Of a DNA stretch of 46,788 nt, positions 1-43,914 are shown one piece after another. Numbering within the stretch: position 1 is the first letter of the stretch; the number at the start of each line of letters is the position of its first letter. Location of the stretch: the IMG/VR virus record IMGVR_UViG_3300045970_001344, positions 1-46,788 of that record; one strand, written 5' to 3'. The translations under genes and the position numbers were made by a program. This DNA is from a virus. Below the pieces are notes generated by a model that worked only from the letters and a program-made list of their open reading frames with translations, searched no databases and was not told the DNA's origin.

Positions 1-822
1 ATGAAGCTGAGTGACCTCTTTGAGGATGACGCATTTCCCGATGAGGCGCCACTGGTCCTCACGCTCATCAACAACCTGCTGAAGAAGGGCACTGAGGTCC
101 GCGTCTACTATCGTGGTGATGGTGGATCAATGGTAAACCTGGAGTGGGATCCACCTGCACAGCATGGCGGCAATGGTGCTACATCCTTCAAGCTCGAAGA
201 TGGTCGCTATATGACCATTAGAGATGACAACCTTGATAAGCTGAAGCTCATCAAGTCACGTAGATCTTCATTCAGTGGCGTGAACATGTTTACACTGCGT
301 GCGCCGAATGTTGATGAAGGTCGGACTGGCATGGGGTCTGAGCAGCATCGAAGCACCGTGGTCAGAGAGACCATGGCATGGATCAACATGGTGGATCTTG
401 AGTTCAAGGATCTTATCAAGGGCGCGGGCTGGCGTCTAAGCAAGGCACCAACAGCCGGACTTGACGGCGGCTACTTCGGTGGCACGCTACAGGCTACCGC
501 ATCATCGAAGCGGGCGCTAATATCCCTGCACGAGCAGCGTGAAATGATGATGAAGCTCATCATCAAGAAGCTGCTGCACTACGTCAAGGAAGGTCACCGT
601 GTCTCAGCTACGCCCTATGCCACTCATGCCATGGCCAAGCGCCATCTGACCACCAAGGACACAGTCGCAGATGTACTTGACATGGTAGAGGACCAAGGCT
701 CCTTCATCAGCATGGATGGTGCAAAGTTCGACATGTACTGGCACATCAGCCTGCCGCAAGGTATTCGAGACCGCTATGAAGCTGCTACTCGCAAGCTGAT
801 GGGAGACAGCGATGAAGATTGA
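1..822 (+). CDS. Putative internal virion protein, family A, capsid-targeting-like N-terminus
   Basis: 273 aa, function not recognised. It opens MKLSDLFEDD, the pattern shared by about 17 proteins here; it resembles the T4 internal-protein targeting peptide, which is cut after (L/I)xE, so LFE at residues 6-8 is a candidate cut site. The C-terminal half carries the family A pattern found in the next three genes: a GGYFGGTL-like turn, an ISL..Q.E helix and a final YWHISLP strand. The ATG is the first base of the window, so an upstream start cannot be excluded. The end overlaps the next gene by 11 bp, which suggests translational coupling. Role in the virion is inference. Confidence 0.7.
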   Translation: MKLSDLFEDDAFPDEAPLVLTLINNLLKKGTEVRVYYRGDGGSMVNLEWDPPAQHGGNGATSFKLEDGRYMTIRDDNLDKLKLIKSRRSSFSGVNMFTLRAPNVDEGRTGMGSEQHRSTVVRETMAWINMVDLEFKDLIKGAGWRLSKAPTAGLDGGYFGGTLQATASSKRALISLHEQREMMMKLIIKKLLHYVKEGHRVSATPYATHAMAKRHLTTKDTVADVLDMVEDQGSFISMDGAKFDMYWHISLPQGIRDRYEAATRKLMGDSDED

Positions 823-1282
823 AGACCTCTTCGAAGCCAAGAAGCCATCACCCGACTGGGCACAGAAGGAGCAGGCAGAGTTTGCCACCTTCGTCAAGCA
901 GTTTGGCATGCAGCTGATGACACGTAAGGTAGAGCACCGCGCGCCAGACCAGTGGATGATTGGTGGTGACATCAAAGACACCGACAAGAGCCAGCACATC
1001 TCTCTGCCTATCGAGATGCGCTTCAAGGCACTGAAGAAGGGTCTGTCTCACTACCTGCTTGACAAGGCCAAGGACGCCTACCCTAACCGCTACGTGAAGC
1101 TCATCAGCAACCCGCGGGGCTGGCGCACATCGCCCCACTACATTCAGCATGATGACAGTCCTATCCAGGTGGAGCGCATCGTCGATGATGTCGTGCACCA
1201 AGACAGATACCGCGATCAGAGCTTAAAGCTCGGTCAGTGGACCACCTACGTCCACTGGTCCATCTCGGAGCCAAAGTCATGA
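812..1282 (+). CDS. Putative internal virion protein, family A
   Basis: 156 aa. N-terminus MKIEDLFEAK has the targeting-like motif with a possible LFE|A cut. It shares with its neighbours a WMIGGDI turn, an ISLPIEMRFKALKKGL helix (compare LPFEKRVEQWLK and PFEKRVKDFL in the next two genes) and a terminal YVHWSI strand. It starts inside the preceding gene and its TGA overlaps the next ATG (ATGA). No catalytic motif is visible. Function unknown; a packaged or structural role is inferred from the N-terminus. Confidence 0.7.
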   Translation: MKIEDLFEAKKPSPDWAQKEQAEFATFVKQFGMQLMTRKVEHRAPDQWMIGGDIKDTDKSQHISLPIEMRFKALKKGLSHYLLDKAKDAYPNRYVKLISNPRGWRTSPHYIQHDDSPIQVERIVDDVVHQDRYRDQSLKLGQWTTYVHWSISEPKS

Positions 1283-1770
1283 AGCTCAGTGAGGTAGCCT
1301 ACATTCCCTTCGCCGCTCGTGAATTCAAGTCTGAGCACTCGAAGTGGATCAAGCAGCTTGCTAAGGACCTTGACCTTGGTCTCATGACTGGGTCAACCGT
1401 AAACGTCAATATGCCATACCGTCAAGAGGGTGGTTGCTGGTTTGGCGGCACTCTCGTCTTTGCAGGCGGGGTGGTGGCTGAAGAGAAGCGCCGGAAGGGT
1501 ATCTGCCTTCCCTTCGAGAAGCGCGTTGAGCAGTGGCTGAAGGCGGTCTGCAAGGTGCTTGAGCAGAAGCGTGCTGAGGACTACGCCATCTACATCAACG
1601 AGCAGCCAACCTGGTCTACCAACACCCTTCGTGCACTCAGCCTAAAGCAGGACAACTACACTGAGATGAGGGTCATGGCCAAGGTCAAGGACCCAATGAC
1701 TAACCCACGCGACTCCTATCCACGCATCTGCTGGTGGGTCAAGGATGAGCCGGGCAAGGACAACTACTGA
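1279..1770 (+). CDS. Putative internal virion protein, family A
   Basis: 163 aa. I chose the ATG at 1279, which overlaps the upstream stop as ATGA and gives MKLSEVAYIP, over an in-frame start at 1237 that lies well inside the previous gene. The body has the family A signature: CWFGGTLVFAGG, then LPFEKRVEQWLKAVCKVL, then a terminal ICWWVKDE strand. There is no LFE, so the terminal peptide may have diverged. Unknown function; co-translated with its paralogues. Confidence 0.7.
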   Translation: MKLSEVAYIPFAAREFKSEHSKWIKQLAKDLDLGLMTGSTVNVNMPYRQEGGCWFGGTLVFAGGVVAEEKRRKGICLPFEKRVEQWLKAVCKVLEQKRAEDYAIYINEQPTWSTNTLRALSLKQDNYTEMRVMAKVKDPMTNPRDSYPRICWWVKDEPGKDNY

Positions 1771-2270
1771 TGAAGCTGAGTGAGATCGCGCTACCTGCTA
1801 CTGCTGAAGGTATGGCGGCCTTCGGCAAGGTCATGACTGATGCTGCTCGCAAGTTGGCAGCCCATCATGGCATCACCATCGATGGTGGTGCTACCCACAA
1901 AATCGGCTATCTTGATGGCGGCAATGCCAGACTTCCACTGGCACGCAAGGAATTCATCCTGGATGGTGGCTACCTTCGCCCACTTGGTGGCATCAACGGT
2001 GAAAAGAAGCAGACTGAGCCTTTCGAGAAGCGCGTCAAGGACTTCCTGATAACCCTGCACAAGGGTCTTCAGAAACATCAAGTGCAGGCCATCAATGATA
2101 GCCTCGGTCTTGATTTCCACATCTACGTGGGCACGGTGCGGACACAGGACGGCCGTGGTCTGAAGCGCGCTGATGAGACAACTCCCTCTGATTGGTTTGA
2201 CATGCTGACCTTCGACAAGGACCATCGCGACCTCCCCGAGGTCCATGCAACCTGGATGGTCGCCAAGTAA
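1770..2270 (+). CDS. Putative internal virion protein, family A
   Basis: 166 aa, starting at a TGATG junction with the preceding gene. N-terminus MKLSEIALPA; the family A signature is LDGGYLRPLGG, then EPFEKRVKDFLITL, then VHATWMVAK. The DNA at the start (atgaagctgagtgag) nearly matches the starts of the genes at 1 and 1279, which points to tandem duplication. Last gene of this four-gene set; followed by about 100 bp with a late promoter. Function unknown. Confidence 0.7.
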   Translation: MKLSEIALPATAEGMAAFGKVMTDAARKLAAHHGITIDGGATHKIGYLDGGNARLPLARKEFILDGGYLRPLGGINGEKKQTEPFEKRVKDFLITLHKGLQKHQVQAINDSLGLDFHIYVGTVRTQDGRGLKRADETTPSDWFDMLTFDKDHRDLPEVHATWMVAK

Positions 2271-2287
2271 CTGGCACCAACTCACAG

Positions 2288-2293
2288 TAAATA
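2288..2293 (+). promoter_or_regulatory. Late promoter (TAAATA)
   Basis: GTAAATAG just after the family A operon and 79 bp before the next start codon. The core matches the T4 late -10 box (TATAAATA) read with a gp55-type sigma factor. Confidence 0.5.
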
Positions 2294-2371
2294 GAATTGT
2301 GTCTTACAGGACACATAGCGGGGGTTAATTTTTGGACCTTTTGCCCCGTGGGTTCGTTAAATGGAGAAATC

Positions 2372-3271
2372 ATGATGTACGAAAATAAGATGGCCGTCGC
2401 CATTCTGGCCAATGGTCGTGTCCTTCGCGAAGTCAAGGACACTGTCTACATGCCCTTCGGGCAAGACTACGTAATCCGTTTCAAGAACATGAACAGCCTT
2501 CGGGCCCTCGTTCGTGTCTCTGTAGACGGTCAAGACGCTACTGAAGGCACCAGCCTCATCGTGCCAGCCAACGGCACCGTCGACCTGGAGCGCTTCCTCA
2601 AGGCAAGCAACCTCGAACAGGGTCACAAGTTCAAGTTCATAGAGAGAACTGCCAAGATTGAAGATGGCCCACGTGGCATCAAGGTCGAGGACGGTCTGAT
2701 CCGCGTTGAGTTTGAGTTCGAGAAGCAGCACGCCAAGATTGAGGACGTCTACACGCGTCAGCACTTCATCAACGACTACTGGCATCGTCCGATCTACCGT
2801 AGCACGCCAATCTATGGTGATGTGTGGTGCTCTACTGAGTTGAAGAGCGTTGCTGGCACCGCTGCAACGCTTAGCAGCAACTCATCAACCGCATCGCTCA
2901 GCAGTGAAGCAAGTGGCACAGCAACTACCCAGCAAGCTACCTTCAACATGGCCAACATGAAGGCCATGGCAGCATCAGTTTCCCCCGAGGCCCAGGCTAC
3001 GGTCAACAACGCCTTCGTGCCTGATCAGGCGCTTGTCGGCATCACTGTGCCAGGCGCGATCTCGGAGCAGAAGTTCACGACTGGCGCTTGGTTTGCCGTT
3101 GATGGGCAGAAACACGTCATGATCCTGAAGCTGATGGGGACCTATGGTGATGTGGCGGTTGAAGAGCCAGTCACTGTCAAGACCAAGATCGAGTGCCCAA
3201 CCTGTGGCACGAAGAGCCAGCCAGGCGTGAAGTTCTGCGGTGAATGTGGCACGTCGCTCGTGACCCTTTGA
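2372..3271 (+). CDS. Hypothetical protein with C-terminal zinc ribbon
   Basis: 299 aa from the ATG at 2372 (another ATG at 2375; GGAG lies at 2363-2366 and fits either). An in-frame start at 2297 would precede the ribosome site and is not favoured. The last 25 residues form a CxxC...CxxC ribbon (CPTCGTKS, then FCGECGTSL). A Ser/Thr/Ala-rich low-complexity linker at about 175-215 separates a beta-rich N-terminal part from the ribbon part. Its own late promoter suggests a virion or assembly role, but I do not recognise the family. Confidence 0.75.
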   Translation: MMYENKMAVAILANGRVLREVKDTVYMPFGQDYVIRFKNMNSLRALVRVSVDGQDATEGTSLIVPANGTVDLERFLKASNLEQGHKFKFIERTAKIEDGPRGIKVEDGLIRVEFEFEKQHAKIEDVYTRQHFINDYWHRPIYRSTPIYGDVWCSTELKSVAGTAATLSSNSSTASLSSEASGTATTQQATFNMANMKAMAASVSPEAQATVNNAFVPDQALVGITVPGAISEQKFTTGAWFAVDGQKHVMILKLMGTYGDVAVEEPVTVKTKIECPTCGTKSQPGVKFCGECGTSLVTL

Positions 3272-3278
3272 CCATGCA

Positions 3279-3284
3279 TAAATA
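3279..3284 (+). promoter_or_regulatory. Late promoter (ATAAATAG)
   Basis: CATAAATAG 29 bp upstream of the ATG at 3313, followed by a good ribosome site (AGGAG) close to the ATG. Confidence 0.6.
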
Positions 3285-3312
3285 GCCCTATCGCATCAGA
3301 TAGGAGCTACAT

Positions 3313-3771
3313 ATGCTAGAGCTACTCAAGAAGATCGGCGTCCCAGCAACGATCTCTGCAATCATCGCAGCCTTGGTGACAATGGTCCCCATCCTCTTCA
3401 AGGTGGATGAGCGCTACGCCAAGGCTGATGATATGCATGCAGCCGTCGCCAAGCTTGACAAGGACAACGATGAGCTGCGTCATGAACTGGCGCAGGCCGT
3501 CGGTTTCCAGCAGGCCATGGTAGCCCTGATCCAGTTAGAGAAGACACCCCGTGTCTCCTTTGACGGTACGGGTGGTTACCACATGCTGCTGACAGCTGGT
3601 GACATGTCGACCATGGGTACCATGCTGCGGGTTGCCGCCCCTCCCGCCGCCCCTCCCGCCGCCCCAGCCAGTGCAGCATCTGCTCCTCAGCGTCGGGATA
3701 TCGAGCGTCCCAGAAGCTGGATGGAGCTGAATGAGGCCATCGCCCGCCAACAGCAACGGCTGGCAAAGTAG
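3313..3771 (+). CDS. Membrane-anchored coiled-coil protein
   Basis: 152 aa. One N-terminal membrane helix (about residues 10-30), a charged coiled coil (about 38-70), then an Ala/Pro stretch made of PPAAPPAAP repeats. The C-terminal ARQQQRLAK resembles the end of the 4757-5059 product (IQQKQRLHD), which has the same anchor-plus-coil layout, so the two may be related. The topology would fit an inner-membrane spanin or a virion-associated membrane protein, but no family signature is clear. Confidence 0.7.
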   Translation: MLELLKKIGVPATISAIIAALVTMVPILFKVDERYAKADDMHAAVAKLDKDNDELRHELAQAVGFQQAMVALIQLEKTPRVSFDGTGGYHMLLTAGDMSTMGTMLRVAAPPAAPPAAPASAASAPQRRDIERPRSWMELNEAIARQQQRLAK

Positions 3772-3800
3772 TGTACTTCTGGTCCATGGCGTGATATAAT
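3772..3800 (+). promoter_or_regulatory. Early promoter, leaderless configuration
   Basis: TGTACT (3772-3777), 17 bp spacer, TATAAT (3795-3800). The ATG of the RNA ligase gene is only 5 bp further on, so transcription should start on or next to the start codon. Confidence 0.7.
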
Positions 3801-3805
3801 GCATC

Positions 3806-4453
3806 ATGGACCACACCAAATACCCACGCACCTGGCACCTACCCTTCAGCCCTGGTGCCACGTCTGATGACAAGACCCTGTCGAGCTGTGAGCAGTTCGA
3901 AGGTGAGGATGTTGTCATCACAGTGAAGATGGACGGTGAGAACACCACCGGCTATCAATCAGGATACCTGCACGCTCGGTCCCTTGACAGCCGAGGCGGT
4001 GAAGATCGGGACTGGGTGAAGCAGTTCTGGGCAGAACGTGCCCACCTTCTGCCAGCCGGCTATCGTGTCTGTGGTGAGAACCTCTGGGCCCAGCACAGCA
4101 TCCACTACGATGCACTGCCATCCTACTTCCTCGGCTTCAGCATCTGGAATGAGCAGAATGTCTGCCTCTCCTGGGCTGACACCGTCGAGTGGTTCGAGCT
4201 GCTCGATGTCAAGCCAGTTGAAGTGCTCTACCAAGGTACCTTCTCTGAAGAGGCGCTGCGGTATGCATCGGCCGCCTGTAAAGAACTGTGGCAGCACCGT
4301 GAAGGCTACGTGGTTCGGCTTGCCCGGGAGTTCAAGTACGATGACTTCAAAACAAGTGTGGCCAAGTATGTTCGTGCAGGGCACGTGACGACAGATACAC
4401 ACTGGCGGCACAGCGCCATCAAGCCCAACGGTCTGGCACTCGGGTCTAAATAG
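3806..4453 (+). CDS. RNA ligase (Rnl2-like nucleotidyltransferase)
   Basis: 215 aa. Seals RNA ends through a covalent lysyl-AMP intermediate. Visible motifs: motif I KMDGENT with the adenylated lysine near residue 41, a motif Ia/III-like stretch (RVCGENLWAQHSIHY, YFLGFSIW), motif IV EGYVVR and motif V KYVR. It is short, a catalytic core without an obvious extra domain. It is expressed from an early promoter directly at its ATG. With the downstream tRNA array, repair of tRNAs cut by host anticodon nucleases is a reasonable role, as for T4 Rnl1; that is inference. Confidence 0.85.
   Translation: MDHTKYPRTWHLPFSPGATSDDKTLSSCEQFEGEDVVITVKMDGENTTGYQSGYLHARSLDSRGGEDRDWVKQFWAERAHLLPAGYRVCGENLWAQHSIHYDALPSYFLGFSIWNEQNVCLSWADTVEWFELLDVKPVEVLYQGTFSEEALRYASAACKELWQHREGYVVRLAREFKYDDFKTSVAKYVRAGHVTTDTHWRHSAIKPNGLALGSK
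4447..4452 (+). promoter_or_regulatory. Late promoter (TAAATAG) inside the ligase stop
   Basis: CTAAATAG overlaps the last codons of the RNA ligase gene, 22 bp before the ATG at 4475; GGAG follows. Confidence 0.5.
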
Positions 4454-4474
4454 GGCATCACCCTGGAGCCCCAA

Positions 4475-4723
4475 ATGGAAGACCGCCGCTTTGCCGACCA
4501 TCCTTTCTACTACCACGAAAAGGTTCTTCCACTTGGGCTTCAGGCCCTCTTCAACTGCAAGGATGACGCAGCACTCCATGCCCTGATCCTCGATCTGGCT
4601 GGCAGGCTGACTGCTGAGAACTTTGACGTGGTGGGCAAGCAGCTGTTGGGAGCGCTGGCACTTCATGACAACCTGCTGGGTGGTCGCACTGTCATCATGA
4701 TTGGTGACATCGTCAACTTCTAA
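4475..4723 (+). CDS. Hypothetical protein
   Basis: 82 aa, starting after GGAGCCCCAA. Mostly helical composition with no Cys cluster, membrane helix or catalytic motif that I recognise. It sits between the RNA ligase and a membrane protein gene and is served by the late promoter overlapping the ligase stop. Confidence 0.65.
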   Translation: MEDRRFADHPFYYHEKVLPLGLQALFNCKDDAALHALILDLAGRLTAENFDVVGKQLLGALALHDNLLGGRTVIMIGDIVNF

Positions 4724-4756
4724 CCATGTGAATGAACTCACTAACTGGAGACTGTC

Positions 4757-5059
4757 ATGTATCTATTTGCACACCGCTACCAAATTCATCGTCATACTGC
4801 GATATTTACCACGATATTCATGCTGCTCATGCTGGTGCCCCCGCTCATCTTTCAAACTGTAACGTATGTAAAGACACGTGATGCACTGGTGGCGCGCGAT
4901 GCATTTCAGACAGCAGAAATAGAGCGGCTTGCCAATGCCCAGATCCGTCTCTTAGACCTATTGGAAACTGAGCATGACATAACAACTCCCAAGTCTAAGG
5001 AAGCACTTGACAACATTCGCGCAGCGCTGATACAGCAGAAACAACGCCTGCACGATTAA
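4757..5059 (+). CDS. Membrane-anchored coiled-coil protein (possible spanin)
   Basis: 100 aa. An N-terminal basic segment, one hydrophobic helix at about residues 16-36 (FTTIFMLLMLVPPLIFQ), then a heptad-like helix to the end. This is the topology of inner-membrane spanins, but no lysis genes are adjacent, so the role is open. A GGAG lies before the ATG. The C-terminus (QQKQRLHD) resembles that of the 3313-3771 product. Confidence 0.65.
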   Translation: MYLFAHRYQIHRHTAIFTTIFMLLMLVPPLIFQTVTYVKTRDALVARDAFQTAEIERLANAQIRLLDLLETEHDITTPKSKEALDNIRAALIQQKQRLHD

Positions 5060-5067
5060 AACTTCAA

Positions 5068-5586
5068 ATGCTCCTGCAAGAGATCTCTGTCAGTCGAGAA
5101 AGTCTCCTCCGCACAGCCGCGGAGGAGATTGGCTACAACCCATCGCTGACCACTCTTGCGCCCTACGGCAACGAGATCATGGATGCAGCCATCGCCTTCA
5201 TGAAGGACTGGTGCCAAGACGACAGCAAGGTCTCACTCCAGCGCAGGTCTTCATATCCCTACAACCTGCGCCAGTTGTGGAATGCGCATGAGATCTACAA
5301 GACCGCACACGCACTGGCATCGAGGTATTGGACAACTCCGATAGTCCGACATCTTGACAGGTATGGCTTTAGCCAGCTACCATCCATCAAGGGCTGGTAT
5401 GAGATGGATCGCTACACCGGCAAGGTGCCACGACGCCAGATCCGCACCTACGCTTCGAAGCTGAGCTCGGCTATCGAGTACATCGACCTACTTCGGTCTG
5501 CAGCCCAAGGCGTCTTCGGCCAGGACCCCTACCATCTGTCGGTTGCCAAGGCAACCCTCAAGAAGCTGGGTGTCCCATGCGACTGA
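5068..5586 (+). CDS. Putative internal virion protein, family B
   Basis: 172 aa. First of six paralogues marked by a shared C-terminus: this one ends VAKATLKKLGVP; the others end CKAAMKKLGLP, ARACLKQLGI, AKANLKSLGL, AMAALKRLGL and AKATFKKLGI. The N-terminus MLLQEISVS is a weaker version of the targeting motif. Helix-rich, no enzyme motif. The stop overlaps the next start by 10 bp. Function unknown; a packaged head protein is the working guess. Confidence 0.65.
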   Translation: MLLQEISVSRESLLRTAAEEIGYNPSLTTLAPYGNEIMDAAIAFMKDWCQDDSKVSLQRRSSYPYNLRQLWNAHEIYKTAHALASRYWTTPIVRHLDRYGFSQLPSIKGWYEMDRYTGKVPRRQIRTYASKLSSAIEYIDLLRSAAQGVFGQDPYHLSVAKATLKKLGVPCD

Positions 5587-6110
5587 TTGAGGTTGCACAG
5601 GACGAACTGTCTATTCTGGTGGATGCATGGGCACACATCCACCATGAGAACCATGAGCGCTTTCCGCTGCAGCTCATCAAAGGCGTAGATCGAGAGAAGT
5701 CCTACGAGGTTGCGAAGCTACTCTACATCAAGGCGCACGAGAAGCACAACTTCGAGGATGAACTTGGTGCCCTTCGGGCCATGACAGCAACCAAAAACAT
5801 CAGCATGGAACGAGTTCGCTCATATACGCGAACGCTTCGCTGGACAGGTTTCTGCGACATCTACCCGATCAACTGGCTTGACATGACCGCGGCAAGTCGC
5901 GATCTAGAGGAGTTCAAGAGGGCTCGGCCTGCTGCCATGAAGATCATCGCGAATGCACAGCGCATCTTTGCAGGCCTACGGCGGATCAACATGATTGCGA
6001 CTGACTACAAATCGATGATCACCATGCCTGACCTGGATGAGCTGGATGCAGCCGTTTGTAAGGCTGCCATGAAGAAGCTCGGTCTCCCAATCGGCGACAT
6101 CAATGTCTAA
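5577..6110 (+). CDS. Putative internal virion protein, family B
   Basis: 177 aa, N-terminus MRLIEVAQDE, C-terminal family B signature VCKAAMKKLGLP. The mid-region (LEEFKRARPAAMKIIANAQRIFAGL) matches in position the helix before the signature in its paralogues. Starts within the previous gene. No recognised domain. Confidence 0.65.
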   Translation: MRLIEVAQDELSILVDAWAHIHHENHERFPLQLIKGVDREKSYEVAKLLYIKAHEKHNFEDELGALRAMTATKNISMERVRSYTRTLRWTGFCDIYPINWLDMTAASRDLEEFKRARPAAMKIIANAQRIFAGLRRINMIATDYKSMITMPDLDELDAAVCKAAMKKLGLPIGDINV

Positions 6111-6117
6111 CCAGACA

Positions 6118-6123
6118 TAAATA
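6118..6123 (+). promoter_or_regulatory. Late promoter (ATAAATAG)
   Basis: CATAAATAGG in the 35-bp gap between family B genes, 22 bp before the ATG at 6146. Confidence 0.6.
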
Positions 6124-6145
6124 GGTGAACTGACTATGCGCACCT

Positions 6146-6670
6146 ATGAAGCTTTCCCAACTCTTTGAAGCACCTGCCGATCCTCGCAATCTCCTAAGAG
6201 ATGTAGCGCAGGAGTTGGGGCTGTCAAATCCAGCCTTCTACGACATCGATGACGACACCACTAACGCAGCCGAGGTTCGGGTAGGCATTGATCTGTATCG
6301 ACTACATCAAGATACTGAAGGCTCTGCAGATATCAGCGGTAGATTAAAGGCAATCCATCAGCTGGCAAATCAAGCCAAGTTTCCTGACAACAGTGGTCCC
6401 GAAGCCCTCGAATACTTTGATGGTCAAGACCTTGGTAAGCTACCTCACGTAGCGGCCTTTCATCAAGCGCTCGTGACGCTTAGCAAGGTAGCCGACAAGG
6501 TTCGTGAGAGCGTAGACACCTGCTTCAAGGTCTACTTTCTACTTGGTGCCATCAACACTGCAGCGATCACGACGGTGTCATCAAAGTATGACGCTGATGA
6601 GTTGAAGTATCGTAGCTCCATTGCACGTGCGTGCCTGAAGCAGCTTGGCATCACGCCGAAGGATCTCTGA
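6146..6670 (+). CDS. Putative internal virion protein, family B
   Basis: 174 aa, N-terminus MKLSQLFEAPAD with a possible LFE|A processing site, C-terminal signature ARACLKQLGI. Preceded by its own late promoter, so this gene starts a sub-operon running to 9354. Helical, function unknown. Confidence 0.7.
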   Translation: MKLSQLFEAPADPRNLLRDVAQELGLSNPAFYDIDDDTTNAAEVRVGIDLYRLHQDTEGSADISGRLKAIHQLANQAKFPDNSGPEALEYFDGQDLGKLPHVAAFHQALVTLSKVADKVRESVDTCFKVYFLLGAINTAAITTVSSKYDADELKYRSSIARACLKQLGITPKDL

Positions 6671-7053
6671 TGCAGCTACAGCAGCTCTTCGAGAAGGTCA
6701 GCCAGGTCTTTACAGCCACCTACGCGCATGCCAAGTTTACCTACACCTTCGTGCTTCGTAAGGTTGGAGAGGACGGCGCCAATCGGCCTGTCTACGTAGG
6801 TGACTGCATCGTACACGATGAGAGCGATGGCAGGGACAACGCGATGAAGGTTGCCGTTGTGATGCGGCCCAATGGCACGCTCTACGCAGCGCACTACGCT
6901 GAGAAGATGACAGATGCCGTGGCTGCTGCTGGTCTTGCCATCTCAACGCAGCGCAAGGCCTATGGCATCGGCCATAGAAACAACTCTGAAAACTGGACGA
7001 CCTATCGTCAAGACGAAATCACGGTGGATGGATATGATGCTTCGATTGACTGA
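6670..7053 (+). CDS. Putative internal virion protein
   Basis: 127 aa. I take the ATG at 6670 (TGATG junction), which gives MQLQQLFEKVS with the targeting-like motif, rather than an in-frame ATG at 6631 inside the previous gene. It lacks the family B C-terminus; the body is beta-rich (FTYTFVLRKVG, RPVYVGDCIV). Unknown function. Confidence 0.65.
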   Translation: MQLQQLFEKVSQVFTATYAHAKFTYTFVLRKVGEDGANRPVYVGDCIVHDESDGRDNAMKVAVVMRPNGTLYAAHYAEKMTDAVAAAGLAISTQRKAYGIGHRNNSENWTTYRQDEITVDGYDASID

Positions 7054-7663
7054 GTTTCTCAAACTTCTGGAAGCCCAAGGCATCGAGTGGCAGACCATTC
7101 ACAACATGGCCGGCAAGCCAAAGCGCTTCAAGAAGATTGATGGAGACTGGGAGAGCCCATCTCAGGCACGTGCCTGGATGAAGAGCCATGACATCCCCGA
7201 GCCTGCAGTCCGCACCTCACCAGCGCGCCTTGCAAAGGCTGTGGCCAAGTATCCGACCGCTGGCAAGCACCTTGCACTGCAGTGGCTGAAGGACGATGAG
7301 GAGCAGGAGAAGCTTGAGAAGCAGATTGCACGTGACAAGAAGCGCAGTCACCCAACGCCACGTGAGATCTGGGACGAAGTAGAGACTGCTATCGGCAACT
7401 CCTTCCCAGATGGCGACCCTATTGATGCACTCCACCCTTGGATGGAGAAGCATGAGGTCACGATGGATGAGGTCAACGCTGCAGTCAAGCAGAATGTCAT
7501 GGGGCGCGGCAAGGGCAAGAAGAACTATGGCATGTATTACTACCTCGCCGACATGTGGGATGACATGTCTCGTGATCAACTGCATGATGCCAAGAATGGC
7601 CACTATGGTGAGCACTATGATGATCAGTGGTTTGCGCAGGGTAATCCATGGAGATCTCGATGA
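7037..7663 (+). CDS. Putative internal virion protein, Lys-rich
   Basis: 208 aa from the ATG at 7037, giving MLRLTEFLKLLEA, a targeting-like N-terminus with LLE as a possible cut; ATGs at 7028 and 7034 are alternatives and 6914 is unlikely. A basic central stretch (about 90-115, EKQIARDKKRSH) could bind nucleic acid. The start lies within the preceding gene and the end overlaps the next. Function unknown. Confidence 0.6.
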   Translation: MLRLTEFLKLLEAQGIEWQTIHNMAGKPKRFKKIDGDWESPSQARAWMKSHDIPEPAVRTSPARLAKAVAKYPTAGKHLALQWLKDDEEQEKLEKQIARDKKRSHPTPREIWDEVETAIGNSFPDGDPIDALHPWMEKHEVTMDEVNAAVKQNVMGRGKGKKNYGMYYYLADMWDDMSRDQLHDAKNGHYGEHYDDQWFAQGNPWRSR

Positions 7664-8181
7664 GATTGAAGGACTTCCTTGCTGAGAACGACGGCTCAAA
7701 GCTGCAGCAACTGAAGCTGGCTTGCAGGGAGCTGGGCATCACACTGAAGATGCCTTCCAGCGCCTACACTCATGATGAGATGGTCGATAGAGTGGTGAGA
7801 GCAATGAATGCCGCCTTCAAAAAAGATGGCATGGCAGGCATCTACCGCCTCTCCTCTGCACTTCTTAACATCAAGTCACTTGATATTCCAAAGAACTCCT
7901 CTTGGTATCCACTCGCCTCAGTGCAGACAGATGCACCTGACACCATGTGGTCAACAGACCTACTGCAACCACTGGTGCAGGCCTACTCCATCATCAACGC
8001 ACATGCATCAGAGGTGCGGGATGCTGCAAAGATCTACCAAGGCGCCCTCGACGCGCTGCTGACCATCATGAAGGTGGCCAATGGCACCATCGGTGATGCT
8101 GAGAAGGAAAACGCTGCCTATCGCGTCTCCATTGCCAAGGCCAACCTCAAATCACTAGGACTGCGTTTTGAAGCTAACTGA
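7660..8181 (+). CDS. Putative internal virion protein, family B
   Basis: 173 aa. The ATG at 7660 is preferred over 7648: GGAG sits at the right distance, the junction is ATGA, and it exposes MRLKDFLAEN, a targeting-like N-terminus with LAE. Ends with the family B signature IAKANLKSLGL. No catalytic motif. Confidence 0.7.
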   Translation: MRLKDFLAENDGSKLQQLKLACRELGITLKMPSSAYTHDEMVDRVVRAMNAAFKKDGMAGIYRLSSALLNIKSLDIPKNSSWYPLASVQTDAPDTMWSTDLLQPLVQAYSIINAHASEVRDAAKIYQGALDALLTIMKVANGTIGDAEKENAAYRVSIAKANLKSLGLRFEAN

Positions 8182-8815
8182 CATCAGCGCTACTCCCGCA
8201 AGCAAGACAGCTACCAGCAAGCTGGGCAAGCAGACGTCTATGGTCACGGTTGCCGCAGGCAAGAAGCCGCGCCTCGAGCTCGGCGTCATCGGCCTCTCTA
8301 TCGGCCAGACGCAGTCAACTGGCTCTACCTCCCGTGTCAATGAGGCTCAACTCTCAGGGCTGGAGATACTTGAGCTCATCGACCACGTTGGTGAGATGCT
8401 TCGAGAGAATGGTGAAGGCTTTCGGGTCCGCTTTGAGCACCGCTATGGTGAGCAGATGGAGTTTAGCAAGGAGCACGCTGCACTCGATGCCATCAAGATC
8501 GCTCGAATGGGTGACAAAGGCATGCGGGCCAACGCTGCCCTGCAGAAGATTGGCATGTTTGAGCACGACGGTAACCTTCGGCAGGTAGCTGAGATGGCGG
8601 TGAAGATGCAGGAGGAAGAGATCTCCTTCGAGCCACCTATCATGGAGGCCTTCGCAATGGCAGCACGCCTACACGATCAATCCAGCAAGCTGTATGCCTA
8701 CTCCAGCAATGTTAGCAAGATTGTCAACTTCCTCAGTGAGCTGACAGATCTGAAGCCAGCAGACAAGACCTACCCGTTTGCCATGGCTGCGCTCAAGAGA
8801 TTGGGACTACGATGA
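8168..8815 (+). CDS. Putative internal virion protein, family B (TTG start)
   Basis: 215 aa from a TTG at 8168; there is no better start, AGGA lies upstream, and TTG yields MKLTDISATP, fitting the family N-terminus. A Ser/Thr/Ala/Lys-rich segment follows (about 8-35), then helices and the signature AMAALKRLGL. Overlaps both neighbours. Function unknown. Confidence 0.65.
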   Translation: MKLTDISATPASKTATSKLGKQTSMVTVAAGKKPRLELGVIGLSIGQTQSTGSTSRVNEAQLSGLEILELIDHVGEMLRENGEGFRVRFEHRYGEQMEFSKEHAALDAIKIARMGDKGMRANAALQKIGMFEHDGNLRQVAEMAVKMQEEEISFEPPIMEAFAMAARLHDQSSKLYAYSSNVSKIVNFLSELTDLKPADKTYPFAMAALKRLGLR

Positions 8816-9354
8816 GATTTAAGGACTTTGTCACTGAGGCACCGAAAGCTCCAAAGCCCCCGCTCCCTGAAGGCATCAAGCTTATACAGCTGCTGATGGT
8901 TGAAATACACGGTGGTGACGGTGGCAACTACAAGCTGAAGCTGCAGCCAACCCAACAGCAAGAAGCTCTCGATGAAGCTGTCCGCATCATGCGCCGCGTT
9001 ATGGCTGGAGCTGACGGCCCACTGATAAAGGGCATCCTATGGCAGATATCTAATGACCTAAAGGTACTCCGCAAATCACTGCTACCGTTTCCTACCCATG
9101 AAAGTCACATGGATGAGGCGGGTGTATGGATTGAAAACAAGGAGGTTGCCCGCACACTTCAAATTGTTGCAGGTATTCAGCAGGAAGTCGTCAAGAGCCA
9201 TGTCTACATGGAAAACCTCTACGAGCTCCTCTTCGTTCTCGAGTATGTGTATCGTCTCATCGAGGGCCAACCCGTCGGCAACGGCAACGGTAGTCTCGAT
9301 GCCGCTGGACTAACCTTCGCCAAGGCTACTTTCAAGAAGCTCGGGATCCTCTGA
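8812..9354 (+). CDS. Putative internal virion protein, family B
   Basis: 180 aa, ATGA junction with the previous gene. N-terminus MRFKDFVTEAPKAP: the VTE|A context is very like a T4 prohead-protease site. Family B signature FAKATFKKLGIL at the end. Last gene of the operon; a 250-bp regulatory gap follows. Confidence 0.7.
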   Translation: MRFKDFVTEAPKAPKPPLPEGIKLIQLLMVEIHGGDGGNYKLKLQPTQQQEALDEAVRIMRRVMAGADGPLIKGILWQISNDLKVLRKSLLPFPTHESHMDEAGVWIENKEVARTLQIVAGIQQEVVKSHVYMENLYELLFVLEYVYRLIEGQPVGNGNGSLDAAGLTFAKATFKKLGIL

Positions 9355-21953: not shown

Positions 21954-22667
21954 ATGAAGACTTCAGAACTGTTCGAACTACGTACAAACGCGCCCCGACA
22001 GAAGACGGAAAACGTCAAGCGCTACGTTGATGCAAGTGATCCAAAGGGTCGCGCTGAGACCGAGTGGACTTCTGGCCAGGGACATATCCCAAACGGCAAG
22101 CACTACAAGTGGGCGAAAGAGAAGGTCTTCGACAAGGACGGCAAGCCCGTCATGTACAAGCCGTACAGCAACGCACACTACCGCCCAGGTGGTGACCATG
22201 GCCCAGCCGCCGTCATGGGCACCGTTGGTGAGTGGCTTTCCAAGATGGGCGCTACCCGTGAGCACCTTGCACCCGCCCTCGAGAAGGTCCGTTCCTCTCC
22301 AGAATACCACCATGCGATGGCCCTCGGCTTCGAGGACAAGACGAGCGTCGGTGATGCCAAGAACGGCACCCTCAATCTGGTCGGCAGCTACGACAATGGC
22401 TTGATGGGCGAGAAGCCAGTCATGGTTCGTCGAAAGATCCTCGCCAATGGCAACATCCGCACGCAGGCTGACGACCATGACCGACACGGTGGACGTGGCA
22501 CGGCCGCCCATCCAGTGACGATTGACACGCACCCGCACATGGATCCGGTTGACCGCATTGTCCACTCAATGCGTGCCTCCATCGAGCGTGTCACTAAGAT
22601 CTACCAGACACAGTCGAAGCATCACTTCGTACGTGCCCTCCAAAAGCACAAGGACAAGACAAAATGA
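21954..22667 (+). CDS. Putative internal virion protein, capsid-targeting-like N-terminus
   Basis: 237 aa. N-terminus MKTSELFELRTN matches the targeting-like motif with LFE as a possible cut. The rest is hydrophilic, basic and His-rich (HYRPGGDHGP, DDHDRHGGRG, HPVTIDTHPHM), which would suit a DNA-associated head protein or a metal-dependent activity. Own late promoter; ATGA overlap with the next gene. Function unknown. Confidence 0.65.
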   Translation: MKTSELFELRTNAPRQKTENVKRYVDASDPKGRAETEWTSGQGHIPNGKHYKWAKEKVFDKDGKPVMYKPYSNAHYRPGGDHGPAAVMGTVGEWLSKMGATREHLAPALEKVRSSPEYHHAMALGFEDKTSVGDAKNGTLNLVGSYDNGLMGEKPVMVRRKILANGNIRTQADDHDRHGGRGTAAHPVTIDTHPHMDPVDRIVHSMRASIERVTKIYQTQSKHHFVRALQKHKDKTK

Positions 22668-32725: not shown

Positions 32726-32727
32726 TC

Positions 32728-32892
32728 ATGATGGCGGCCTTTCTGGCCATCCTGGCCTTCGCGCTGGTCCTCGTTGCTGTAGTGGTGCAGGTTAGCCACT
32801 CCAGCGGTGGGGCTAAGTATGTGACGACGGGGATCTGCATCATCTCAGCACTGGCATTCCTGCTCTACTCGGCCAAGGTCTACACGCCGTGA
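32728..32892 (+). CDS. Small membrane protein, two helices
   Basis: 54 aa from the ATG at 32728, 2 bp after prkA. Hydrophobic helices MAAFLAILAFALVLVAVVV and ITTGICIISALAF-like, short polar turn (HSSGGAKY). Its stop overlaps the GTG of the next gene. Possibly a membrane partner of the PrkA complex; inference. Confidence 0.6.
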   Translation: MMAAFLAILAFALVLVAVVVQVSHSSGGAKYVTTGICIISALAFLLYSAKVYTP

Positions 32893-33443
32893 AGCTTAGA
32901 GATCTCATGCTTTGTAATAGCCACAATGATGGGACAAGATCTCTCTTTGAGAGCATTCTTGTTCCTGAAGTTGAGGCAGCTTTCAAAGATTGGAATAAAT
33001 CTGCCACTGATGCAAAGTGTGTGTTGATAGGAGGCATTGCGCTGTCATTCTATGTCAAACCCCGGATGACTACCGATGCGGATCAGCTCTTCATGTCAGC
33101 GGCAGACATTCCTGCTACAGTGGATGGTTTCAAGCGAACAAGACCGGGTGCATTTATGCACAAGCATACCCATGTAGAGATTGAGGTACTCACGCCATCA
33201 GCCATCAACATGTCCGTCGAGCTCGCCCACGCTATTTTTGATCGCGCGCAGATACATGATGGAATTCGCGTGGCAGAACCGAGTGGTATTGTAGCTGCCA
33301 AACTCGGCCGCTTCAAGCTGCGCGATCAAGCAGATATAGAAGAACTATTGGCGCATTTCAAGATTGATCTTGATCCATATCCACTATCTGCGGCTGAGCT
33401 TGCACGTTACGATCAGCTTCGCACACAACTGAGCAATACATGA
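32889..33443 (+). CDS. Nucleotidyltransferase-like protein between prkA and yeaH
   Basis: 184 aa from a GTG. A GGIALSFYVKPRMTTDAD segment (about 48-65) fits the pol-beta-type GG...T.D.D motif of MNT/AbiEii-like nucleotidyltransferases; the third acidic residue may be in VEIEVL. N-terminus MKLRDLML resembles the capsid-targeting-like peptides, and the first 20 bp nearly match those of the gene at 34807. More AT-rich than its neighbours, so probably a later insertion. Could modify tRNA or protein (AMPylation); not certain. Confidence 0.65.
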   Translation: MKLRDLMLCNSHNDGTRSLFESILVPEVEAAFKDWNKSATDAKCVLIGGIALSFYVKPRMTTDADQLFMSAADIPATVDGFKRTRPGAFMHKHTHVEIEVLTPSAINMSVELAHAIFDRAQIHDGIRVAEPSGIVAAKLGRFKLRDQADIEELLAHFKIDLDPYPLSAAELARYDQLRTQLSNT

Positions 33444-34810
33444 CTGCCAAGCCACCAATCTCCTCGACCTTCATCTTCGTCGATCGACGCAAGACCGGTC
33501 GAGGCAAGTCGCTCAACAACCGTCAGAAGTTGTTGGAGCGCATCAAGGAAAGCATTCGCACTGCCAAGCCCAAGGATATCGATGCGGGTGGTGGCTTGGG
33601 TGCTCAGTCAGCTTCTTCAAAGAACCTGATCAACCCCGTCAAGATCGCGCGCAGCGCACTGCACGAGCCGACCTTTCACTACGACAGCCGTACTGGTGAG
33701 CGTGAGGTCATCCTCATCGGCAACGACCACTGGGAGCGGGGCGACAAGTTTCCAACAAGCAGTGGTGGCAAGGACGGCGAAGGTCGTGGCAAGGGTGAGG
33801 GCAACGGCCCAGGTGAAGATGGTGAAGACGACTTCATCATCAACATCTCACGCACTGAGTTCTTCGACGTCTTCTTTGAGGACTGTGAACTGCCTGACAT
33901 GAAGGAGACCTCCGAGAAGGAGCTTCCTGAGGCAATCTGGAAGCCAGCCGGTTTCCAGAAGGAAGGCAACGCTGCGCAGCTGTCGGTGATCCGCTCATAT
34001 CGCAACTCCATTGGCCGCCGACGCGCGCTCACCGCCGATGCGCGTGCTGAGCTGGAGGAGATGGAGAAGATACGCGATGAGGCGCAGAAGCGACTTGACC
34101 ACAATCCTCTGGATGCTTCTGCCAATGCTCGCTGGAAAGTGGCAATTGCCCGTATCGAGGAGCTGAAAAAGCAGATCGCTGCTACGCCGTTCTTCGAGAA
34201 GCTGGATCTTCGCTACCGCAAATCGGAGCGGGTTCAGGTGAAGTCAGCCGATGCCGTGTTGGTCATGGTGATGGACATCTCTGGCTCGATGGACGAGGAC
34301 AAGAAGCGCGCAGCCCGCAAGTTCTTCTCGCTACAGTATGCCTTCATCAAGCGCAAGTATCCCAACACAGATCTGGTCTTCATCGCGCACACCGACACCG
34401 CCGAGGAGATGAGTGAGGAAGACTTCTTCACCACTCAGAAGTCTGGCGGCACCATCGTCTCACCATCGCTTGAGCTGGCCAATAGTATCATCAGCACACG
34501 CTATGATCCTGACCAGACCAACATCTATCTCTCCTACGCTGGCGACGGCGACAACTGGGAAAGTGACAATGCCAAGGTGATGGAAGAGCTCGAGGGCAAG
34601 GGCCTTCTATCGAAGCTGCGGCACGCCGTGTATGTTCAGGTCGGACAGAGCTACACATCAGGTCTCTACGGCAGCGGAAACAGTCTCTGGAATGTCATGC
34701 AGTCGGTGGCGAAGACCAATCCGAAGATGCATGTTATCAAGGTCGTCGATGACAGCGAGGTATTTTCCTCCTTCAAGACAATCTACGGCAACAAGAAGGT
34801 CAAGAAGTGA
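33440..34810 (+). CDS. yeaH: YeaH/DUF444 von Willebrand A protein
   Basis: 456 aa, slightly longer than E. coli YeaH (427). SSTFIFVDRRKTGRGKSLNNRQ at the N-terminus is typical (IDRR...G+...NR..+). A Gly/Asp/Glu-rich region at about 105-140 precedes a C-terminal VWA domain with MIDAS DISGSMDE (about 278), a T in the loop, and DGDNW. Acts with PrkA in E. coli stress adaptation by an unresolved mechanism. ATGA overlap upstream, GTGA downstream. Confidence 0.93.
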   Translation: MTAKPPISSTFIFVDRRKTGRGKSLNNRQKLLERIKESIRTAKPKDIDAGGGLGAQSASSKNLINPVKIARSALHEPTFHYDSRTGEREVILIGNDHWERGDKFPTSSGGKDGEGRGKGEGNGPGEDGEDDFIINISRTEFFDVFFEDCELPDMKETSEKELPEAIWKPAGFQKEGNAAQLSVIRSYRNSIGRRRALTADARAELEEMEKIRDEAQKRLDHNPLDASANARWKVAIARIEELKKQIAATPFFEKLDLRYRKSERVQVKSADAVLVMVMDISGSMDEDKKRAARKFFSLQYAFIKRKYPNTDLVFIAHTDTAEEMSEEDFFTTQKSGGTIVSPSLELANSIISTRYDPDQTNIYLSYAGDGDNWESDNAKVMEELEGKGLLSKLRHAVYVQVGQSYTSGLYGSGNSLWNVMQSVAKTNPKMHVIKVVDDSEVFSSFKTIYGNKKVKK

Positions 34811-35406
34811 AGCTTAAAGATCTTCATGAGATGGCAGTGCTCTATAGCCCTGGATTTCATGTGACTTCTGAGCAATGGAAAGAACACTGCGCTGAACAAG
34901 CACAGGCCGTTCTTCTCAAAAAGCTGCATGACAATATAGAACTTCGCATGCAAGATGGGAAACATCGCGCGGTGTCGTATTGGGTAGATGGCGTTATGGT
35001 ATCTCTTGCTATTATCCATGATAGGGTGATCGACGGCAAGGAATATCAGGATCTTCTGTTTATTGCATCTGATCCGGATAAAAGGCAAAAAGGTTACGCT
35101 ACCGCGCTACTCTGGGAAATCTTCTGGGCTTTTGATAAACCGTTGTTGATAGGTGGAGCAATATCACCAGAGGGTCAGAAGTTGGTGTTCTCATTCATGA
35201 AGGCACTTGCATCCAGAGAAACAGATGAGCCGAAAATGATTGATGTTTACACCGGTGAGGTGCGTTCATTTGACCAGAAGAAGTATCTTAGAAGGCCTGA
35301 ACTTTCACTTGTTCTAGAATGTTTTGCTTTAGAGGCCTGTAAAATGCCAACAGCAAAACATCCATACTGGCTGCATCAACCGAATTTATTTGAAGGTCAA
35401 CCATGA
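34807..35406 (+). CDS. GNAT-like acetyltransferase between yeaH and spoVR
   Basis: 199 aa from a GTG. ASDPDKRQKGYATALLWEI (about 87-105) fits GNAT motif A, (R/Q)xxGx(G/A), which holds acetyl-CoA; the preceding strand (YQDLLFI) fits too. N-terminus MKLKDLHEM is targeting-like. AT-rich compared with its neighbours, like the gene at 32889, with which it shares the start sequence gtgaagctta.agatct. Substrate unknown; it might modify the system's proteins or a host target. Confidence 0.65.
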   Translation: MKLKDLHEMAVLYSPGFHVTSEQWKEHCAEQAQAVLLKKLHDNIELRMQDGKHRAVSYWVDGVMVSLAIIHDRVIDGKEYQDLLFIASDPDKRQKGYATALLWEIFWAFDKPLLIGGAISPEGQKLVFSFMKALASRETDEPKMIDVYTGEVRSFDQKKYLRRPELSLVLECFALEACKMPTAKHPYWLHQPNLFEGQP

Positions 35407-42369: not shown

Positions 42370-42395
42370 TCGGGCAAGGTAGGTAGCCGCCCCGA

Positions 42396-42401
42396 TAAAT
42401 A
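42396..42401 (+). promoter_or_regulatory. Late promoter, plus strand, leaderless
   Basis: GATAAATAG 5 bp before the ATG at 42407. With 42361-42372 it forms an inverted repeat (CTATTTATCGGG / CCCGATAAATAG). Confidence 0.65.
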
Positions 42402-42406
42402 GAAGC

Positions 42407-43024
42407 ATGCCCCGTACACCGACCTTCACCTTCAAACAGTTCCTTGAGAGCGACGACCCTCTTCAGGACATAGAGCGGGCCATGATCATTCGCAAATTGA
42501 TCCCGTCCCTGAAGTCTCAGGAGGCTCTTGATGTGCTGCACTGGGTAGAAGACCGCGGCATTCCAGGTATGCATGCTTCCTATGATGACCTACCCGATGC
42601 TGTGTCTGAAAAGATAGCCAACTCACTGTTTGCCGAGACTGACGTTACCGGCAAGAGTATGGATGGAGTTCCAGATCACAAGGCTGCCCCTATCATCCGT
42701 GGCAAGATCCAATCCATGATGTGGGACATGCTGAATGGCATGAAGCTGAAGGAGAGTGATGATCCTCTTCTTGACACGCAGGTTGAGATGTTCTTCCGCA
42801 AGGAGCTTAGCTTGCCCAAGGAAGAAGCTGCTGAAGCAATGCAGTGGATAACCGGCGAGAAGTTTTGGAAGGATCTCAGCAGTGATACCCGAGACCATGT
42901 CCTTGACTATGTCTCCCAAGATATCAATCCCAACATCTACAAGTTGGCTCCTGGATACCTACCTCAACACTGCCAGGATGAGTTAGTTAGATTGATGCGC
43001 GACAAGTATAGGATTGGATCATGA
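42407..43024 (+). CDS. Putative internal virion protein with internal duplication
   Basis: 205 aa. The N-terminus TFTFKQFLESDDP has the FKQFL-type targeting motif. Two homologous halves both begin ESDDPL (residues about 14 and 115) and continue with helices (IRKLIPSLKSQEALDVLHWV; FRKELSLPKEEAAEAMQWI). No enzyme motif. Begins directly at a late promoter; ATGA overlap with the nucleotidyltransferase gene. Possibly a head-packaged protein. Confidence 0.65.
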   Translation: MPRTPTFTFKQFLESDDPLQDIERAMIIRKLIPSLKSQEALDVLHWVEDRGIPGMHASYDDLPDAVSEKIANSLFAETDVTGKSMDGVPDHKAAPIIRGKIQSMMWDMLNGMKLKESDDPLLDTQVEMFFRKELSLPKEEAAEAMQWITGEKFWKDLSSDTRDHVLDYVSQDINPNIYKLAPGYLPQHCQDELVRLMRDKYRIGS

Positions 43025-43914
43025 AACCAACATTCAAGCAGTTTCTTGCTGAGGGTGGCGCAGCTACGGCTGATCATAACACCGGCCGTGCTACCAAAGC
43101 AGACATTGAGGCAGCGCTGGCCTTCGTCTCCAAGCACACTGGCATCAAGCAGGATGAGCTCATTCCCAATCTGCTCGGATCTACAGGTCACACGCTGGCA
43201 GGCAAAAAGAAGGACAGCGGTGACATCGACATCGCCTTTGAAGAGGGCAAGTATGACCGTGACCTGCTGGTAGACCGCATGAAGAAGGTGACTGGTATGG
43301 ACAAGGTCCATCAGACCGGCTCAGGCACCTACTCCTTTGCAGTCCCAGGCGCAGGTGACAACAAGGTCCAGGTTGACTTCATGTTCGTGCCGTCTGAGAA
43401 GTGGGCACGCTTCGGCTTCCACTCGGCGCTCGACAGCGCCTACAAGGGGCTGGTGCGTAACAACTACCTGCTCGACAACGTGATGAAGCACACCTTCGAG
43501 CCAGGCAAGGACATCACTGTCAAGGATGAGCAGGGCAATGAGATCGTCCGGGTGCGACGCACCTTCGGTCGTGGTGAGGGCGTCTACCGCACCTTCAAGG
43601 TAGCGCCGATGCGCAAGGATGGCAAAGGTCGAGTGCAGCTTCGGAAGGGCACGCCTGATGAAGTCGAGGCTCAGCTGAAGTCGATTGGCCACAGCGGCAA
43701 GTTTTCAAAGGACGTAGATGCCATTCTTGACCCCGACATGGCAGCAGCCTTCCTCTTCGGCAAGGGCACCAAGGCGGCTGACCTCATGTCAGCAGAGCAG
43801 GTCATCAAGGCCATCTTCAAGCGCAAGGACCACGCGGCCATCTTCAAGGATGTTGTAGCTGACCTCAAGCAGGCAGAGTTACCGGTGCCTGCTGAGATCG
43901 CTAAGTTCGCTTAG
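43021..43914 (+). CDS. Nucleotidyltransferase-like protein with capsid-targeting-like N-terminus
   Basis: 297 aa. N-terminus MKPTFKQFLAEGG: a targeting motif with LAE|G as a possible processing site. Residues about 55-75 hold LGSTGHTLAGKKKDSGDIDIAF, the GS...D.D nucleotidyltransferase (pol-beta) signature, with KVQVDFMF supplying the third Asp. C-terminal half basic. A packaged enzyme injected with the DNA is a plausible reading, like T4 Alt; the substrate is unknown. Converges on the next fibre gene with a 4-bp overlap. Confidence 0.75.
   Translation: MKPTFKQFLAEGGAATADHNTGRATKADIEAALAFVSKHTGIKQDELIPNLLGSTGHTLAGKKKDSGDIDIAFEEGKYDRDLLVDRMKKVTGMDKVHQTGSGTYSFAVPGAGDNKVQVDFMFVPSEKWARFGFHSALDSAYKGLVRNNYLLDNVMKHTFEPGKDITVKDEQGNEIVRVRRTFGRGEGVYRTFKVAPMRKDGKGRVQLRKGTPDEVEAQLKSIGHSGKFSKDVDAILDPDMAAAFLFGKGTKAADLMSAEQVIKAIFKRKDHAAIFKDVVADLKQAELPVPAEIAKFA

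Follow-up and report, generated by a model that had tools for sequence, protein, structure and literature searches.

The stretch of DNA analysed here (the window) is the whole of IMG/VR virus record IMGVR_UViG_3300045970_001344, a phage genome fragment of 46,788 bases in which a number of genes open with variants of one short N-terminal peptide, such as MKLSDLFE, MRLKDFLAE or MKLSE. The initial annotation had described this peptide as a capsid-targeting-like leader on about 17 proteins, twelve of them encoded consecutively at the start of the window. The start peptides it named are present at the genes in question and the shared N-terminal peptide is real, but the description was too generous. 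The twelve array genes form a run of four (1-2270) and then a run of eight (5068-9354), with five non-carriers between them (2372, 3313, 3806, 4475 and ~4757). Furthermore, the sequences behind the peptide, which had been called mostly unrelated, are related in ten of these twelve genes, as they fall into two diverged paralogous families: 5068, 5577, 6146, 7660, 8168 and 8812 (family 1, with a common C-terminal AKAxLKKLG motif), and 1, 812, 1279 and 1770 (family 2).

All carriers lie on the plus strand; a slash marks the candidate cut. Gene 1..822 (MKLSDLFE/DD) combines the family 2 core with an N-terminal PLxxxxLLKKG-type domain, which is met as carriers of ~105 amino acids in G011, a contig of 106,081 bp that is syntenic with the window over 0-26 kb and also contains the array. 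It is followed by 812..1282 (MKIEDLFE/AK; MKTIELFEAK in the G011 orthologue), 1279..1770 (MKLSE/VAYIPF, with its LxE in a residue-5 register; MKLDEVSYIPF in G011) and 1770..2270 (MKLSE/IALPATAEG). The second run opens with the weak carrier 5068..5586 (MLLQE/ISVSRE, C-terminal AKATLKKLG) and continues with 5577..6110 (MRLIE/VAQDE; MKLNEV in G011), 6146..6670 (MKLSQLFE/AP; orthologue MKLQQLFE/T, with a body 37% identical), 6670..7053 (MQLQQLFE/KV; orthologue MKLQTLFE/T), the possible carrier 7037..7663 (MLRLTEFLKLLE/A; orthologue MMRLSEYLKEM), 7660..8181 (MRLKDFLAE/N), 8168..8815, a TTG-started gene that matches only the strict block defined below (MKLTDISATPAS; orthologue MKLTDLGATQAS), and 8812..9354 (MRFKDFVTE/A; orthologue MRFKDFISE/A). 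Outside the array lie 21954..22667 (MKTSELFE/L), with homologues starting MKTSELFEI in G011, MKIDELLTE/G in L015 and MKAAELLLE/L in L006 and L007; the weak carrier 32889..33443 (GTG start, MKLRDLMLCN, LFE/S at residue 21), with a start peptide that is conserved in L004 (VKLRDLILCN); the weak carrier 34807..35406 (GTG start, MKLKDLHE/M); the possible carrier 42407..43024 (MPRTPTFTFKQFLE/S); and 43021..43914 (MKPTFKQFLAE/GGAAT). The start codon of 42407 is uncertain, as just 5 nt separate its ATG from a preceding late-promoter-like GATAAATA (42394..42401, plus strand). The weak members are 5068, 7037, 8168, 32889, 34807 and 42407.

A strict block of six residues (^M[KR][LIFTVWMY].[DEQKN][FLIV]), tuned on the window, opens 10 of its 49 automatically called genes (null 0.1-0.3%, P = 1e-15) and 12 of its 51 curated genes, where ~0.5% would be expected. 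When paralogous families are merged, five independent strict-block groups of 43 remain (P = 3e-6, 0.5% null). To offset the tuning of this block on the window, we ran two further tests that were free of it, a positional count of [LIVMF]xE and a pattern taken from T4 mutagenesis. The former, which is free of any leader motif, found 11 [LIVMF]xE ending at residues 8-10 in the window versus ~2.5 expected (P = 6e-5). In G011 it found 24 versus 9.0 at these residues (P = 2.5e-5), and 25 versus 3.0 at residue 5 (P = 3e-15), a peak that is absent from the same count in XacN1, CBB and T4. Nine of the proposed carriers (1, 812, 6146, 6670, 7660, 8812, 21954, 34807 and 43021) have a cut-like site near residues 8-11. 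In 1279, 1770, 5068 and 5577 the sole LxE is at residue 5, in 32889 LFE occurs solely at residues 19-21, and 8168 has no LxE site.

In T4, a capsid targeting sequence (CTS) of ~10-19 residues is found on IPI, IPII, IPIII and Alt (Mullaney and Black 1996; reviewed in PMC9026906 and PMC3012670). For IPIII, the first ten residues are enough for head entry; targeting rests mainly on residues 4 and 7, and residues 8 and 10 determine processing (PMC9026906). From the published mutagenesis alone we derived the pattern Phi..Phi[LIVMF].E, the key residues in MKTYQEFIAE being Y, F, I and E. Over 115 kb of T4, this pattern has 7 matches versus 1.8 expected, which comprise the known head or virion proteins IPII, IPIII, gp24, Alt and gp2, together with two uncharacterised genes. 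The viral contig G005 (349,660 bp) has 19 carriers versus 3.0 expected (P = 3.6e-10), many of them starting with MITFKQFLSE or near to it, and the viral contig G010 (310,728 bp) has 12 versus 2.1 (P = 1.8e-6); the count for XacN1 (14) was not used, as it includes terminal-repeat duplicates. Three genes of the window match exactly, namely 7660 (MRLKDFLAE), 8812 (MRFKDFVTE) and 43021 (MKPTFKQFLAE). A compressed form, L-x-x-L-F-E (the MKLSDLFE type), is one residue shorter and occurs five times in the window (P = 7e-4) and 29 times in Atu_ph07 versus 8.1 expected (P = 6e-9), there often as MRWEQLTE-like starts, and a third form has its LxE at residue 5 (MKLSE, MRLDE). The head proteins of T4 likewise have LxE-type sites in both registers, early in Alt (MELITE) and gp67 (MEGLIE), and later in IPIII and gp24. 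T4 Alt is presumably cleaved after residue 6. We also noted that the uncharacterised 54-aa protein of T4 gene 61.1 (NC_000866, 18966-19130) starts with MKTFKEFIKE, which is very similar to the targeting sequences of the internal proteins, and that T4 gp2 starts with MAIFQIINE.

The strongest argument for a T4-type targeting leader is its modularity, since the leader is separable from the protein that follows it, being exchanged or absent among homologues and paralogues. One conserved family of G005 and Atu_ph07 (the YRG family, ~200-270 residues with the motifs YRG, RSxSxF and a late invariant E) is found behind MITFKKFLSE, MKIFELLNE, MKIRELFES or MRWEQLTE. Likewise, 43021 has five relatives with a leader, in spellings that include MITFKQFLLE/GGKAT, MISFKQFLTE/GGKAT and MKLKQLFE/AKSSGKST. 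Its distant, leaderless homologues in Phosso and Atu_ph07 start M-GGAAF and M-GGRAF (the annotated start in the latter), and these starts coincide with the residue that would be exposed by a cut after the E. Relatives of 43021 were not found directly by pattern scan, and neither were those of alignment A1. In the 54-61 kb array of G011 the leader is present on most paralogues and missing from three, and the only sequence common to 83 carriers from six genomes is MKLxELxE itself (mean column identity 5%). Between the window and G011 the leader is kept in 11 of 11 orthologous carriers, and residues 2-7 are more conserved relative to the body in carriers than in non-carriers (P = 0.03). This 106-kb fragment holds 25 block carriers in 156 genes. 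Leader-bearing paralogues form three arrays in it (24.3-36.8, 54.3-61.2 and 76-79.2 kb; L155-L157).

A comparison with a collection of named phages gave no near relative of the window. It does share a PrkA-DUF444-SpoVR segment and the nucleotidyltransferase-like gene 43021 with the viral contigs G005, G009 (336,116 bp) and G010, and all three of these have genes for an S77 prohead protease and for a gp23-type capsid protein. Among named phages, Xanthomonas phage XacN1 has the capsid protein nearest to that of G005, with Stenotrophomonas and Rak2-like phages next. Because of the shared genes, these capsid relatives and the synteny with G011, the window phage belongs to a T4-superfamily jumbo phage group near XacN1, Atu_ph07 and the Rak2-like phages. 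The S77 protease is also found in Atu_ph07 and Phosso, and the gp23 homologues of the relatives contain candidate cleavage sites of LxE or MxE type. Just before the capsid-protein arm these read LAE/T (G005), LTE/T (G009) and MME/T (G010), compared to LTE/A in T4 gp23. Moreover, genes adjoining the protease have leader-like starts (MSILKELVGLREA in G005, MKHLQELLFLSEA in G009 and MILRELIALTEA in G010). As to transcription, late-type boxes (xATAAATA, one mismatch allowed) number 22 in the window versus 7.9 in shuffles, a count reached by none of 100 shuffles. They lie 21-31 nt upstream of the tail-fibre genes (37.7-45.7 kb), and 22 nt upstream of carrier 6146, where the late-promoter-like CATAAATA (6116..6123, plus strand) is conserved 21 nt before the G011 orthologue.

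We consider it probable, at roughly 0.7, that the leader is a T4-type capsid (prohead) targeting peptide that occurs in several spellings on an expanded, lineage-specific set of proteins. These spellings would be Phi-x-x-Phi-[LIV]-x-E (FKQFLAE, LKDFLAE), the compressed L-x-x-L-F-E and, possibly, the short form ending at residue 5 (MKLSE). The T4 pattern, the modular swaps of leaders, the homologues that start at the predicted cut, the protease and LxE-type capsid site of the relatives, and the late-type promoters shared with tail-fibre genes all speak for the T4-like interpretation that had been offered at the outset. Tagged proteins would be made during late transcription and bind the scaffold core through their hydrophobic residues, so as to become enclosed while the prohead shell forms. 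An S77-family prohead protease would then remove the leader by cutting after LxE, and the trimmed proteins would stay beside the DNA inside the head and pass into the host upon infection. The targeting role is well supported by the comparisons above; forms with a site at residues 8-11 are likely to be cleaved, whereas for the residue-5 form this is less certain.

Several points weigh against this interpretation. The block pattern was tuned on the window, some of the carriers have no LxE at the expected place, and it is from sequence that we infer core binding, cleavage, packaging and injection in the window phage. Neither the protease gene nor the capsid gene lies in the 46.8-kb fragment; a gp21 homologue and candidate head cut sites of the same type, which the initial annotation had looked to, are found in the relatives. 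In the mass-spectrometry table of CBB, the one table that could be used, virion proteins show no enrichment of LxE starts (16/55 versus 93/365, P = 0.34); this proteome is uninformative because CBB has almost no carriers, its strict-block count (4 of 419 genes) being near chance level. The chitinase and lipase of XacN1, reported in virions, have no leader; here too the strict block is at chance level (3/443). Indirect evidence in favour of packaging comes from Atu_ph07. According to the published report (PMC6102473), 29 of the 46 products of coding sequences (CDS) 31-76 were found in virions by mass spectrometry, only two of them being predicted as structural. The position of helicase gp70 at 54.5-55.8 kb places the MRWxQLTE array at ~gp53-gp64, and thus within CDS 31-76 (~CDS 53-64). 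As such, the virion would contain some of the array proteins, unless all 29 come from the 34 other products of CDS 31-76.

Could the leader instead be a localisation or docking tag of another kind, one that binds, for example, the scaffold, the tail, a membrane or a replication compartment, and is neither cleaved nor linked to injection? Carriers such as 8168, and those with an LxE only at residue 5, would be accommodated by this, and leader processing in the tagged proteins is itself a prediction from sequence. However, the match to the T4 pattern for both targeting and processing, the homologues that start at the predicted mature end, the LxE-type capsid sites and the similar leaders beside the protease gene make such a tag unlikely. 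Somewhat less likely still is shared ancestry alone, by which the start peptide would be no more than the best-preserved end of paralogues in duplicated arrays, with no role in targeting. While ten of the twelve array genes do belong to two diverged paralogous families, and the arrays of G011 are paralogous too, the peptide also tags the unrelated 21954 and 43021, as well as an ART-PolyVal protein, a zeta-toxin-like kinase and an amidoligase; furthermore, it is missing in some paralogues and has other spellings on homologous bodies. A signal at the level of nucleic acid (translation initiation or regulatory) that happens to encode MKLSxLFE fits the location at the extreme start of reading frames and is very improbable, as spelling shifts among chemically similar residues and codons differ for the same ones (LFE being CTC TTT GAG, CTC TTC GAA or CTG TTC GAA), a variation from which it follows that selection acts on the protein.

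If the leader is a T4-type targeting peptide, what would it deliver? The cargo is lineage-specific, and the array proteins of the window are without assigned function. Ten window carriers compared with Pfam and PHROGs gave nothing above curated cut-offs, the nearest being 32889 with the nucleotidyltransferase family DUF6036 (E = 1e-4, below cut-off). Of the enzymes that had been named among the tagged proteins, the nucleotidyltransferase-like ones thus stand as a weak match (32889) and a motif-based assignment (43021), whereas the GNAT assignment of 34807 is not supported by any match in Pfam. An AlphaFold2 model of 6146 made with 12 sequences is all-alpha (predicted local distance difference test score, pLDDT, of 77, versus 40 for a single sequence), and no structural relatives were found for this model of the array family. 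The six array proteins of family 1 (5068-9354) end in AKAxLKKLGxx, like the LKRLAGIK ends of scaffold-position proteins in G005, G009, Atu_ph07 and Phosso, and these C-termini may possibly be a second head-binding signal.

In relatives, more can be said. The protein at G009:220750 has an ART-PolyVal domain from residue 16, behind the leader (5e-9; 37.5 bits, cut-off 31.2), and is the only one with a recognisable ADP-ribosyltransferase (ART) domain above cut-off. Zeta-toxin/AAA_33 kinase and amidoligase domains follow the T4-pattern leaders MITFKQFLDE and MITFKEYLLE; their assignment to G005:341790 and G010:202950 was read from the sequences, as the domain tally names no members. Cargo of Atu_ph07 gave weak ART-PolyVal and GNAT matches. 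By its motifs, the YRG family (alignment A7) looks like an R-S-E type ADP-ribosyltransferase; it has no match in Pfam or the PDB. In T4, the packaged Alt is an ADP-ribosyltransferase (PMC9026906). Taken together, the ADP-ribosyltransferase, the zeta-toxin-like kinase, the amidoligase and the ART-like family known by motif suggest a cargo for host take-over or counter-defence. Two leader-bearing, ADP-ribosyltransferase-like proteins were seen at L083:788-1222 (FHAAP...IL..GL start) and L067:750-1310 (YHGSN start), the latter an ART-PolyVal protein by Pfam. A G010 protein that starts with MKLYELKE has a clear Acb1 anti-CBASS domain (E = 1.6e-23); as a clean example of anti-defence cargo it is equivocal, since T4 Acb1 itself starts with MMEFKDF and MKLYELKE could be part of the domain. 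The block is also matched by DNA ligases and by one RNA-repair-type kinase, which we set aside as probably due to chance.

Other genes of the window were noted in passing. PrkA, DUF444 (YeaH) and SpoVR at 30770-36884 form a bacterial stress-kinase module in a phage, which is kept in several viral contigs; the leader-like genes 32889 and 34807 sit between its members, and a bactofilin (polymer-forming cytoskeletal protein; 30320-30691, 2e-9) lies just upstream of prkA. The phage has 22 tRNA genes at 10.0-14.5 kb, and encodes a TROVE/Ro60-vWA protein (24452-26056, 1.1e-48) with a possible role in RNA repair or quality control. An RNA ligase (3806-4453, 2e-29) lies between both carrier runs, and its G011 homologue is fused behind ~150 additional residues. 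A BLUF blue-light sensor domain is found at 18272-18727 (4e-23), and a glycine-rich tail protein (37737-39839, minus strand) has a weak C-terminal Hint (intein-like) match (1e-5).

For a lineage of T4-superfamily jumbo phages we lean, by a little over even odds, towards the CTS being a general tag with at least three interchangeable spellings on ~20-40 proteins per genome, which would sort a large and rapidly replaced injected proteome that includes ADP-ribosyltransferases, kinases and further enzymes aimed at the host or its defences. Most genes of jumbo phages lack a known function, and a leader that marks packaged proteins would assign a place (the head) and a time (the onset of infection) to dozens of such unknowns per genome. 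If this is true, injected phage effectors could be found from sequence alone, many of the tagged proteins would likely be weapons against host defences, and what was a curiosity of T4 with some four cargo proteins would become a widespread means of delivery, open to sequence searches and to tests by ordinary virion proteomics. Our search of the open-access literature gave no account of a CTS shared by many proteins of this group of phages. It has been proposed that the CTS may be an evolutionary route by which T4-like phages load varied proteins (PMC9026906), and the present case would be a large-scale instance of this idea.

Like the T4 CTS, the leader described here is short, lies at the N-terminus and combines spaced hydrophobic residues with an (I/L)xE site; it is followed by unrelated sequences and fast-evolving cargo, with a late-type promoter, and with an S77 protease and gp23-type capsid, here in relatives. 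Unlike in T4, where some four internal proteins have leaders, there are 25 block carriers in the 106 kb of G011 and at least 20 in G005, with new spellings (LFE, WxQLTE, MKLSE) and tandem arrays, and packaging is predicted. DarB of phage P1 likewise has an N-terminal packaging signal on an injected protein; the Dar proteins, however, have no common N-terminal consensus, and their signal is longer than 9 residues (PMC9024508). The ejection proteins of SPN3US and phiKZ are also packaged in giant phages and have N-terminal propeptides removed by the prohead protease (PMC5694885), but these are mostly at least 100 residues long, while the group of the window phage is on the T4/Rak2-like side, with a gp23-type capsid. 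Finally, ART-type enzymes have been predicted to be packaged and injected as polyvalent proteins and MuF-fused head-packaged ARTs (PMC9503650), and ART-PolyVal is met behind the leader in G009; in those systems the enzymes are fused to head proteins or form part of large multidomain proteins, whereas here they are separate proteins, each with a short leader.

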